From an uncultured Flavobacteriales bacterium (GTDB taxonomy: Bacteria > Bacteroidota > Bacteroidia > Flavobacteriales_D > Crocinitomicaceae), in NCBI GenBank assembly GCA_905478665.1, contig CAJQJL010000008.1:1-64000 (forward strand): 64,000 nt of DNA. The letters are read 5' to 3'. The notes beneath the pieces are model-generated. The model worked only from the letters and a program-made list of their open reading frames with translations. It did not search any database and was not told where the DNA came from. Below are positions 47,345-52,827 of the stretch, one piece after another. The position numbers and the translations under genes were made by a program. How positions within the stretch are numbered: position 1 is the first letter of the stretch; every line of letters starts with the position of its first letter.

Positions 47345-47399
47345 CTGTAACGGTTCATTCTATTCGGTCGTTTTAATGCCGCTTATACATTTGTTAGCA
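47345..47399 (-). repeat. Candidate short attC-like site ending cassette 3
   Basis: TGCTAAC 4 bp after the TAG of 47403-47966, complementary to that cassette's 5' GTTAGCA; weak internal stem CGGCATT/AATG-aa-CCG; other end GTTACAG uncertain. Confidence 0.4.
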
Positions 47400-47402
47400 T
47401 TT

Positions 47403-47966
47403 CTACTTAATTTTTGCGTATTTCCTCCAAGTGTATTCGGTGTTTCCTGCTGCCATTATCAAAATCATGCCGGCTCTGCACTCGCCTTTTGTAACAACAA
47501 CTTCTGTTTCTGTAAAACTTAAAACAGTAATTCGTGCATAGTAGTTGAACCAAATACAGGGTATTCCTATGGGTCTAACCAGTCGTGACATGACGAACGA
47601 ACTATCTTTCCATTTACCACTGATATTGCGGGTGTATACTAGGCTATCTCCATCATAAGCTTCTACCAATATTTTTTTATCCAATCTCGTTAAATTAACT
47701 TTTAGATTTGACCAGATGTCGATAGTCTTCTTAGATAAGGGGCGGTGAGTAATTTGCTGTAACAAGGAATTATAAAATGTTGAATCAGTTGAATTATTTA
47801 GGTATTCACCACTTGTAAAATAGTGCGGTACATGAGCAGGTATGGTTTTTATTGTTTGCCGAGATGAAACACAACTCGAAATTAAAGAAAGCAATAATAG
47901 CAGGATGATTATGTGTTTGTAACTCTTCATTCTGACCAACGTTTTTTTCAAATGTTTAATTGTCAA
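47403..47966 (-). CDS. Hypothetical lipoprotein (cassette 3 cargo)
   Basis: Signal with LISSCVSS lipobox; 187 aa. Confidence 0.6.
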   Translation of the reverse strand: MTIKHLKKTLVRMKSYKHIIILLLLLSLISSCVSSRQTIKTIPAHVPHYFTSGEYLNNSTDSTFYNSLLQQITHRPLSKKTIDIWSNLKVNLTRLDKKILVEAYDGDSLVYTRNISGKWKDSSFVMSRLVRPIGIPCIWFNYYARITVLSFTETEVVVTKGECRAGMILIMAAGNTEYTWRKYAKIK

Positions 47967-47979
47967 TGTTTTACAATTT

Positions 47980-48078
47980 AGTAATTCTCTCGAAAATCAA
48001 CTTCCTTAAAGTTAGCCCTTGGAAGTCAGTTTCACTTCGTGGCTGCTGCGCGGTCTCTCGGAGACAGGGAGAATTACT
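47980..48078. repeat. 99-bp imperfect inverted-repeat leader at the start of cassette 3
   Basis: AGTAATTCTCTC / GGGAGAATTACT arms (11/12), nested AACTTCC/GGAAGT; abuts the attC core GCTAAC at 48079. Confidence 0.45.
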
Positions 48079-48277
48079 GCTAACGCTTAATCTATGTTTT
48101 TGTAGGGCGATTTAAAAGTACAATTTTTCGTTTACCTAATTAGCCAAAACTTTGGCTTTGGGGTTTAACTTTTTCTGCTGATAAATGCCAAAACAAAGTT
48201 TTGGCGGTGTTTATTAATTGCTGCTTTGTTTCAATTTACTATCAACTGCCCTATAAAATATAGATGTTGTTGTGCAT
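48079..48277 (-). repeat. Large attC-like recombination site A (~199 bp)
   Basis: Cores GCTAAC...GTTGTGCAT; arms ATCTAT..TTT..TAGGGC / GCCCTA..AAA..ATAGAT; internal GCCAAA..TTTGGCGGTGTT. Confidence 0.65.
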
Positions 48278-48279
48278 AG

Positions 48280-49347
48280 TTATTGATTAATTAGTTTCTT
48301 TAAATGACGATGTCTGTCAAATCTATTAGCTTTTTGCCTTGTTCCTTCTTTAACTAATGACTTGTAATTATAAATATCAGATATTAATTCCGGATAATAC
48401 TGTACTAAAAGTTCCTCATTGTCATAGTTGTCTATGAAATTTCTGTAATTCGAAATTTGTTTATCAGTTAAACTTTCTTGGCTGTTTAAAAAGTCAAAAA
48501 CAACGGTGAAAAGTGTGTAAAAGTGAACTTGTCTTTTTAGTATTTTAATTCGCTCGTTATTTCCATCAATTATTGAATTGATTACATTTAAAATAACTAT
48601 AAATTTATCTTTATCACTTTCTCTGTTAGGGTAATCATCATTGTATAAATCGTATATCTGATTCAAATTCGAATTCCCTATATCTTCTTCAATTCCTTTT
48701 TTTAGAAAAACTAATAAAGTACTTACAAATGAGACATCTCTCATTCTTCTTCTATCAGCAATACCAAAAAGTTTGTTTTCTTCCCAAAAGTCAAGTTCTG
48801 CTAGTTCTGATGAAATTAGCATAAATTCTCCTTCGAATTCAGCATTTCTCAATTCTTGAGGATTTAATGTCATGTTATTACTATTCAGTCGAAGAAACAT
48901 ATTTACAATAGAAATCCTTTCTACTTGGCTTCTAACTAATCTCACAGAGAAAACATATGACCAAATTGCTTTTTTGTCATCAGGCTCTAAATCCTTAAAT
49001 AATCTATCTTGAATAGTAGATTTTTTAGGATTGTTTGGATCTAAACTTGCTGCTTTTAATTTATATGTGTTAGCAATATATTGGAATACAGCTCCACATC
49101 GTTGTTGTCCATCAATTATAGAATATTTAGTGTCTCCAGTATTTTCATCTGTTCCGGTATTCCATAGATATATTTCTGGAATAGGATAACCAATCAATAT
49201 TGATTCTATTAATTGAATTTGGTTTTTTTCAGTCCAAACATAATTTCTTTGGAATGAATTATCAACTTCTAATAATCCTTTTTGGCTTAAATCATAAAGC
49301 CATTTTGCCGTTTGGGGCTGAATATCTATTTGTTCAATTAATTTCAT
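48280..49347 (-). CDS. DUF262 domain-containing protein
   Basis: KYSIIDGQQRCGAVFQYI (DGQQR motif), N-terminal FQRNYVWTEKNQIQLIESILIGYPIPEIYLW; no obvious DUF1524 HNH. Confidence 0.85.
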   Translation of the reverse strand: MKLIEQIDIQPQTAKWLYDLSQKGLLEVDNSFQRNYVWTEKNQIQLIESILIGYPIPEIYLWNTGTDENTGDTKYSIIDGQQRCGAVFQYIANTYKLKAASLDPNNPKKSTIQDRLFKDLEPDDKKAIWSYVFSVRLVRSQVERISIVNMFLRLNSNNMTLNPQELRNAEFEGEFMLISSELAELDFWEENKLFGIADRRRMRDVSFVSTLLVFLKKGIEEDIGNSNLNQIYDLYNDDYPNRESDKDKFIVILNVINSIIDGNNERIKILKRQVHFYTLFTVVFDFLNSQESLTDKQISNYRNFIDNYDNEELLVQYYPELISDIYNYKSLVKEGTRQKANRFDRHRHLKKLINQ

Positions 49348-49924
49348 TGATAATATTTTTTAATTTTGTTATTCCTTTTAGATGATATTCTTCAACTGAT
49401 TCCCAGTCAGTATATATCCTGTAATTTATGTCGTGCTGTATATTAAATGTTAATTGAAGTTCAGCTTTAAACGAAAGCACTTTTTTTTGCCAATTTTCAA
49501 GGGTTTCATTCCCATAAGTTTTGTCATCATCTTTAATGCTTATAAAGCCGCTAAAAATATTTCCACATTTCTGTCCATATTTTTCTAGGTATTGACCTTG
49601 GGATACTTCTTTGTATGCAGACCATATATCATAAAAAAGCTTCCTTGAAACAATGATTAAATCAAAATCTGATTTATCGTGGAATTCTGCCAAATTCTTT
49701 GATGGAGAAAAGCTAAACCTTGTTTTAGCACTGCCGACAATTGATATGTTATTAAAAGGGATATTGAGTTTTTTAGAAATGAATTTTTTAAATGAATCAT
49801 AGTCAGAACTAAAATCATCTCCATTGTTTTTAAAATACCAGACTTCTTGTCCAAGTAGATATTCATAATAAATATCTAATTCAGATTTTGAGTTTATTTT
49901 ATGGATTAAATTTTCTTTGTTCAT
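49334..49924 (-). CDS. Nucleotidyltransferase-like protein
   Basis: ISIVGSAKTRFSF...FHDKSDFDLIIVS resembles GS..DxD NTase motif; overlaps DUF262 gene by 14 nt. Confidence 0.55.
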   Translation of the reverse strand: MNKENLIHKINSKSELDIYYEYLLGQEVWYFKNNGDDFSSDYDSFKKFISKKLNIPFNNISIVGSAKTRFSFSPSKNLAEFHDKSDFDLIIVSRKLFYDIWSAYKEVSQGQYLEKYGQKCGNIFSGFISIKDDDKTYGNETLENWQKKVLSFKAELQLTFNIQHDINYRIYTDWESVEEYHLKGITKLKNIINEIN

Positions 49925-49934
49925 TTTTAATTAT

Positions 49935-50129
49935 GCACAACGTTTAGTATATGGCAAGTAGGGCAGTAGAAAGTGATAAATTTTCAACTTTGCACTGAGC
50001 CAAAGTGTTGTATTTTGTTTTTAACTTATTCATTTTAAAAGCCAAATCAATGATTTGGCGGTATTGGTAAATAGCTCTGAACTTTCCTTAACTACCGAAC
50101 GCCCTATTTGTTATATACAGTGTTAGGTG
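49935..50129 (-). repeat. Large attC-like recombination site B (~195 bp)
   Basis: Cores GCACAAC...GTTAGGTG; arms GTATAT-gg-CAA-g-TAGGGC / GCCCTA-t-TTG-tt-ATATAC; internal GCCAAA..TTTGGCGGTATT. Confidence 0.7.
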
Positions 50130-50650
50130 TTTTTTTCTTTAATTAGTGTATATACTTTTGCTAATTGATTATCTTCAATAATCTCTTTTTCATATTTGAA
50201 ATTGAGCTTTTCGAGAACATGAATTGAACCTGTGTTTTCTGGAAGAACCATTGCAATCATTTTTTTTAATTCAAGTTTGTTAAATCCAAGATCCACACAG
50301 GCTTTTCCAGATTCAGTAGCAATTCCTTTTCCCCAATATTCTTTCATAAACCTATATCCAAGATCCACTTCGTCCATATCATCTAGATATTTTAGACCTG
50401 TAAATCCAATAAATTTATTTTCTCCTTTTAATTCAACTGCAAGTCGCCCAAATCCGTATTTTTCGTAATCTCCAAATACATTCTCGACAATCCTTCGTTC
50501 AATTTCTTTTTTGGATACAATCCCTCCGTCTCCTGTGTATTTACTAACTTCTGCATCTAAATTCATTGTGTAGGATGGCTCTATGTCTTCCATTTTAAAT
50601 GGTCGAATTAATAGTCTTTCAGTTTCAATAAATAAATTCGAATTAGTCAT
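50123..50650 (-). CDS. GNAT N-acetyltransferase (RimJ/RimL-like), cassette 1 cargo
   Basis: FIETERLLIRPFKMEDIE, DLGYRFMKEYWGKGIATESG; stop codon lies inside core CACCTAAC. Confidence 0.85.
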   Translation of the reverse strand: MTNSNLFIETERLLIRPFKMEDIEPSYTMNLDAEVSKYTGDGGIVSKKEIERRIVENVFGDYEKYGFGRLAVELKGENKFIGFTGLKYLDDMDEVDLGYRFMKEYWGKGIATESGKACVDLGFNKLELKKMIAMVLPENTGSIHVLEKLNFKYEKEIIEDNQLAKVYTLIKEKNT

Positions 50651-50933
50651 TTATTAGTTTTTTAAATTGCACCTAACAACTGAATATAGTGCACAAATGC
50701 ACCATATCTAAAATCTATATAAATACGCACCTCTCTTACATCCCCCATTAACAAAGCTCCTAAACGATATTTACCATTTATAAGCAATTGTCAAGCAGAC
50801 ACAGGCACGCCGGCCCAAGATACAGACTCTCATATCTTCCATCAAGCGTATAAATACCTGTTTTTCAGAATATTTTAGTCAGCTATTCTTGTTCTAATTG
50901 GAAATTGTACACGCTAATGCTTTACAGACGTCG

Positions 50934-52224: not shown

Positions 52225-52415
52225 AACAAAAGATTTAGTGTCTGATCATCGTCTCTACCTCGTGCAGATTCGACACACAAACGTTATGCACACATAAAAA
52301 CCAACACCGTGCCAAAAATGGTTTTGGCCGCGTTAAAAAATGTTAAGACCTACTAGCGAAAGGTGTTTGAAATAGAAAGAGCAAATGTGTAAAAGGCGAA
52401 AAACTGAAATTTCAC

Positions 52416-52730
52416 GGCAACAGATTTTATTTTCATGGCATAAAATTGTTCGTTCACTGCTCCGGATTTTCATTCCAAGGCAGCAGATTTTGTTTTCACA
52501 GCATAAAATTGTTCGTTCACTGCTCCAGATTTTCATTCCAAGGCAGCAGATTTTGTTTTCACAGCATAAAATTGTTCGTTCACTGCTCCGGATTTTCATT
52601 CCAAGGCAGCAGATTTTGTTTTCATGGCATAAAATTGTTCGTTCACTGCTCCAGATTTTCATTCCAAGGCAGCAGATTTTGTTTTCACAGCATAAAATTG
52701 TTTGTTCACTGCTCCAGATTTTCATTTCAA
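52416..52730. repeat. Tandem repeat, five full 63-bp units plus a partial sixth
   Basis: Units start at 52416, 52479, 52542, 52605, 52668; consensus GGCAGCAGATTTTGTTTTCACAGCATAAAATTGTTCGTTCACTGCTCCAGATTTTCATTCCAA. Confidence 0.97.
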
Positions 52731-52827
52731 GGCATGCTATTCTGCCCCACTCTCCTATTAAACTGACACCATTCAAAGAATAAAGAAGTATCTTTCGGAA
52801 CACAATCGCCTATAAACAGCTGTAACA

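Follow-up and report, generated by a model that had tools for sequence, protein, structure and literature searches.

An unnamed NTase-DUF262 gene pair in an integron cassette of a Flavobacteriales bacterium is a candidate mobile defence module

The window analyzed here, a stretch of 64,000 nucleotides from an uncultured Flavobacteriales bacterium, carries two overlapping genes, one for a likely NTase and one for a DUF262 protein, that together form one integron cassette (Table 1). The pair is best described as a so far unnamed variant of DUF262-based defence. We infer its defence function, as well as which partner senses, which one acts and what the NTase targets. With close to an even chance of being right, we propose an integron-mobile two-gene defence module in which the DUF262 protein would sense infection and control the NTase as effector. 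DUF262 has a known role as the sensor half of enzymes cleaving modified phage DNA, and many DUF262 proteins come without a nuclease. The pair offers a minimal two-protein case for what a nuclease-free DUF262 controls, with natural copies in E. coli prophages. Furthermore, integron cassettes were recently found to store defence genes and have been reviewed as carriers of them (PMC12409362); the pair adds a Bacteroidota example, a cassette with a known defence system next to it in Mesonia.

Table 1. Coordinates of the cassettes, attC-like sites and genes of the pair in the window
Feature	Position	Strand	Basis
Integron cassette with NTase and DUF262 genes	48085-49941	minus	terminal cores; homology to Mesonia (L007)
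NTase-like gene, 196 aa	49334-49924	minus	ORF
DUF262 (GmrSD_N) gene, 355 aa	48280-49347	minus	ORF and Pfam
Reading-frame overlap, 14 nt	49334-49347	minus	ORF coordinates
attC-like site of the pair's cassette, ~200 nt, core TATGCACAAC ... GTTAGCA	48078-48278	minus	
attC-like site of neighbouring cassette, core CACCTAAC ... GTTGTGCATA	49932-50129	minus	
Neighbouring cassette with GNAT acetyltransferase gene (50123-50650)	49942-50677	minus	8-nt matching cores
Neighbouring cassette with predicted lipoprotein-like gene (47403-47966)	47393-48084	minus	7-nt matching cores

An earlier sequence-only reading had placed both genes in one putative cassette, and the ends of the element bear this out. The two cores of the cassette, GTTGTGCATA (49941-49932) and TATGCACAAC (48278-48269), are exact 10-nt inverse complements, and similarity to a copy in Mesonia breaks at those cores. 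The attC-like site begins just past the stop codon of the DUF262 gene, and the GC content of the cassette is 28%, against 39% for the window. Scanning for attC-like arms by themselves was uninformative, with the window sites scoring 15.0 and shuffled sequence 15 to 18.8 and hence no separation, so the cassette claim rests on the terminal cores and on comparisons with Mesonia and Flavobacterium aquicola. The best match to the integron integrase profile TIGR02249 in the genome of the window (89% complete) reached 73 bits, the cut-off being 265, and the array is therefore one without a detected integrase. The far attC of the lipoprotein cassette is apparently truncated. The flanking RDD gene was used to look for an unoccupied insertion site within the genus, but its sole close match came from a genome with the same segment. 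One further locus (L006, genome G021) was rejected as an independent recurrence, its segment being identical and having the same flanks. The lipoprotein-like gene, in the array's third cassette, belongs to no recognized family and is separated from the start core by a leader of more than 100 bp. Elsewhere in the window, at 52409-52734, a 63-bp unit is repeated in tandem 5.2 times with 94% matches, and several reading frames are open across this stretch.

The pair has moved between Flavobacteriia as an integron cassette. Mesonia phycicola carries a pair 90% and 88% identical to that of the window and bounded by the same terminal cores; homology ends precisely there because the attC bodies differ. 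A related pair in F. aquicola is the fourth of six cassettes, and the pair of Pseudoalteromonas THAF3 has cassette-like genes around it and the remnant of an integron integrase beside it. Some details of these arrays can be added. The F. aquicola contig (L012:1-5530) is a pure integron array, the ~132-nt attC sites of its six cassettes being mutually 90-96% identical; no integron integrase above the cut-off was found in that genome. The Pseudoalteromonas remnant (L013, NZ_CP045419.1 535958-536101) lies on a megaplasmid and comprises the first 48 residues with one stop.

Both genes are under purifying selection, linked and co-diverging. The ORF coordinates agree with the two minus-strand genes and 14-nt overlap described earlier, and this overlap and the gene order are preserved in seven loci from two phyla (Bacteroidota and Gammaproteobacteria). 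Between the window and Mesonia, dN is ~0.06 and dS >1.2 in both genes, and the identities of NTase and DUF262 proteins correlate across loci with r=0.98 (105 pairs from 15 loci). Adjacent NTase and DUF262 genes were found in 17 of the 21 distinct loci of the NTase family that were examined, that is, in the window and 16 further loci spread over many genomes and mobile elements. Since the overlap and order are preserved, dN is far below dS and recurrence is wide, the pairing is more than chance. Among these are the loci of Mesonia, Winogradskyella, two other Bacteroidota (L009 and L012), Methyloglobulus, another gammaproteobacterium and the THAF3 plasmid. Three prophage contigs (L029, L030/L031 and L032) and E. 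coli ETEC1738 also carry the pair, and a second subfamily is represented by G025, G294, a Cronobacter plasmid of 6.2 kb, G654 and E. coli 1500. The pair thus occurs in distantly related bacteria, its carriers comprising Flavobacteriia, Gammaproteobacteria, integron cassettes, plasmids and E. coli prophages. The NTase family is rare, being present in 5 of 395 Bacteroidota genomes and in 2 of 369 genomes in the class of L011. None was found in phage records; IMG/VR prophage contigs do carry the NTase.

The upstream protein is likely an NTase, with an activity predicted from its motif and from weak fold matches. Residues G64, S65, S71, S85, D86 and D88 are unchanged in all 14 sequences of an alignment of divergent homologues that includes the window protein, to which the other members are 16-84% identical. 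Of these residues, G64-S65, D86 and D88 form the GS...DxD active-site motif of the Pol-beta fold, here with the spacing GS-x20-DxD; the spacing is x17 in the second subfamily. D/E165 may be a third acidic residue in the subfamily of the window protein and is unconserved family-wide. Searches with the window NTase gave no Pfam, NCBIfam or PADLOC profile match and a single unnamed PHROG family, while NTP_transf_2 (PF01909) was grazed by three of nine homologues, the best at E=0.053, none above the cut-off. For the AlphaFold model (mean pLDDT 76.6), Foldseek gave no significant match (E 0.47), the top rows being NTases. Structural re-alignment placed the minimal NTase HI0073 first, with a weak Z of 5.0 over 91 residues at 3.7 Å, and Pol-beta-type NTases made up about two-thirds of the 48 listed structural neighbours (Z <=5.0), among them MntA, cGAS, CutA, terminal uridylyltransferases, AAD(9) and SpoT. 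Although each structural value is weak, the fold class is consistent and accompanied by the GS...DxD motif, and an NTase is therefore likely. The NTase-like identity suggested at the outset is thus supported by an invariant motif and, weakly, by the fold and the kind of structural neighbours found. Matches of the NTase profile to nitrophorins, the sole ones among the sequences of solved structures, were discarded as chance, as were weak matches in two loci (L004 and L005), both in 541-aa repeat-type proteins.

The identification of the downstream protein is firmer. It matches Pfam GmrSD_N (PF03235) with 89.1 bits (cut-off 33.2), and its FQR/YQR and DGQQR motifs are preserved among its relatives, DGQQR, noticed in the sequence-only reading, being invariant. 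That reading had also taken DUF262 for a nuclease domain, which was wrong: DUF262 is the NTPase or sensor part of GmrSD-type enzymes, and the nuclease is the DUF1524 domain that is missing here, as had been noticed. A Pfam search of both proteins found no DUF1524, HNH or other nuclease domain. DUF262 acts as an NTP-binding switch in GmrSD, BrxU and SspE, and six phage-defence systems have been reported with DUF262 proteins (PMC10952713). The whole structural model is poor (mean pLDDT 63), with an unreliable N-terminal part (pLDDT <50), and only its helical half was therefore interpreted. This half (residues 163-355) aligns with BrxU 243-420 at Z 6.9, the next rows having Z 3.7, and the alignment stops at BrxU residue 420-421 of a chain of 557-580 residues. 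Because the helical match ends before the C-terminal residues of BrxU, the protein looks like BrxU minus its nuclease. With its intact DGQQR and BrxU-like helical domain, it could also work in a type IV-like restriction, recognizing modified phage DNA and relying on a host nuclease or on an unrecognized cleavage activity of its own, the NTase being an accessory. We regard this as very unlikely, since no DUF1524, HNH or other nuclease domain is present and the tight co-divergence of the NTase argues against a mere accessory role.

It is important to consider how the pair differs from named systems. GmrSD, BrxU and SspE share with it the GmrSD_N domain with DGQQR and, in BrxU, the helical middle; however, they have a DUF1524 HNH nuclease, in whose place the window pair has an overlapping NTase gene. 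Among PADLOC profiles, the DUF262 protein best matches NsnA of Menshen, almost over its full length, with 128 bits, whereas Bacteroidota NsnA proteins with ATPase neighbours reach 300-450 bits (maximum 449). The DUF262 gene of Menshen likewise lacks DUF1524 (PMC10952713). However, the window pair consists of two genes with no adjoining ATPase or OLD partner, its neighbours being other cassettes and unrelated genes. The second profile is that of PD-T4-2, a defence system of E. coli that includes a DUF262 protein (PMC10952713), compared here by its A component only, for which the score of 68 bits is below that of NsnA. Like the pair, HepT-MntA (HEPN-MNT) is a two-gene unit with a small NTase that is among the best structural neighbours of our model, but the window has a DUF262 partner and no HEPN gene, and its NTase is larger, without PF01909 at the cut-off. 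The MNT antitoxins have the motif GSX10DXD (PMC7641770) where the window NTase has GS-x20-DxD. The pair was set apart from GmrSD/BrxU, Menshen and HEPN-MNT because of the nuclease, the partner, and the motif and partner, respectively. Regarding CBASS, defined by a CD-NTase with a cyclic-nucleotide effector, the NTase had no PADLOC match and the window held no effector-type neighbour. No name for the pair was found in Pfam, NCBIfam, PADLOC profiles or the literature search, and no PADLOC model covers the NTase, consistent with the earlier impression that this pairing is not a recognized system.

The neighbours of the pair in other genomes are often defence genes. The E. coli 1500 copy is flanked by the genes for the replication endonuclease (gpA) and the portal protein, which places it at the P2-like gpA-gpQ site, described as an anti-phage defence hotspot (PMC9122126). 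In E. coli ETEC1738, it is prophage cargo between replication and antitermination genes. Prophage copies also adjoin genes of the PADLOC candidates PDC-S20 and PDC-S06, and the Mesonia pair follows a cassette-like unit with a complete Olokun system (OloA 256 bits, OloB 441 bits). These locations bear on the idea that the pair is an addiction cassette, or a general toxin-antitoxin pair, that would stabilize arrays, plasmids and prophages and have no real anti-phage activity. Such a role would fit the cassette arrays, prophages and tiny plasmid that carry it, as well as the DUF3990 gene that adjoins it in Pseudoalteromonas. However, copies in the P2-like hotspot and beside Olokun, PDC-S20 and PDC-S06 genes, together with the six phage-defence systems that include DUF262 proteins (PMC10952713), make it quite improbable. 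The Olokun unit of Mesonia (L007:1186-4846) is itself an apparent integron cassette, with GTTGGCGGTA as its starting core and the inverse of this core past OloB.

Short DUF262 genes sampled from 247 Bacteroidota genomes suggest how labour may be divided within the pair. A common adjacent partner is a HEPN protein: of ten partners chosen, nine gave HEPN-family matches at E 0.01 or better, six of these above the curated cut-off, and in an alignment of ten such partners the catalytic R-x4-H never varies. This invariance indicates that the slot beside DUF262 tends to hold an active enzyme. These pairs (MAE_28990 / RiboL-PSP-HEPN) resemble ours in having a short DUF262 gene co-directional with a small catalytic partner; the HEPN RNase lies downstream, whereas our NTase lies upstream. 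A ParB-HEPN operon link has been listed before (PMC3710099). That DUF262 stays the same while the enzymes beside it change suggests a shared sensor with variable effectors, a pattern that favours the NTase as effector, and by this analogy the NTase probably occupies the effector slot. As side observations, DUF262-then-HEPN loci with R-x4-H intact (L064-L075, L081 and L047) come from Bacteroidota as well as from a mini-plasmid of E. coli, and DNA methyltransferase genes adjoin several of them. On two plasmids, of Asticcacaulis and Pseudanabaena, a protein kinase gene comes directly after the DUF262 gene (L044:4980-7126 and L045:4962-7206).

In the mechanism that we propose, the DUF262 protein would be an infection sensor and NTP-driven switch of BrxU/GmrS/SspE-like build without the HNH nuclease. 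The trigger, in the likeliest case DNA of the phage or a DNA modification, would signal infection, change the NTP state of DUF262 and thereby release or activate the co-translated NTase. The latter would transfer a nucleotide onto an RNA or a protein of the host or the phage, so that phage growth is blocked or the cell stalls. We hold it possible, at somewhat below even chances, that the pair represents a nuclease-free branch of GmrSD/BrxU in which phage DNA detection leads to this nucleotide transfer and not to DNA cutting; sister modules would couple the same sensor to HEPN RNases and kinases.

The roles may also be reversed, as in HEPN-MNT-like (type VII) toxin-antitoxin systems, with DUF262 as a toxic effector that the upstream NTase silences by attaching nucleotides until infection lifts the brake. 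In antitoxins, an upstream-first order with overlap is typical, and the NTase gene is indeed upstream and overlapping; moreover, the MNT antitoxins HI0073 and MntA are among its best structural matches. A precedent exists in MntA, which polyadenylylates HepT through GSX10DXD (PMC7641770). However, the DUF262 protein has no recognizable nuclease or other toxic domain, the NTase has the spacing x20 (x17 in the second subfamily) and no PF01909 above the cut-off, and relatives of the NTase also occur alone or with a transglycosylase-like protein. We consider reversed roles a serious rival but less likely, and favour DUF262 as the sensor.

Four of the 21 NTase loci are without DUF262, three with the transglycosylase-like partner (L025, L026 and L089) and one with none (L027), which leaves room for a general regulatory function of the NTase as well. 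The NTase-transglycosylase pair is a second unnamed two-gene unit, in which the NTase-family gene overlaps a small transglycosylase (GT51-like) gene (L025:5291-6575, L026:2175-3501 and L089:3235-4489). Its hosts are two Bacteroidota genomes and an Aliarcobacter plasmid, and nearby lie a TIR (PDC-S35) gene, an AbiE-like gene pair and DrmC/DUF4365-like genes.
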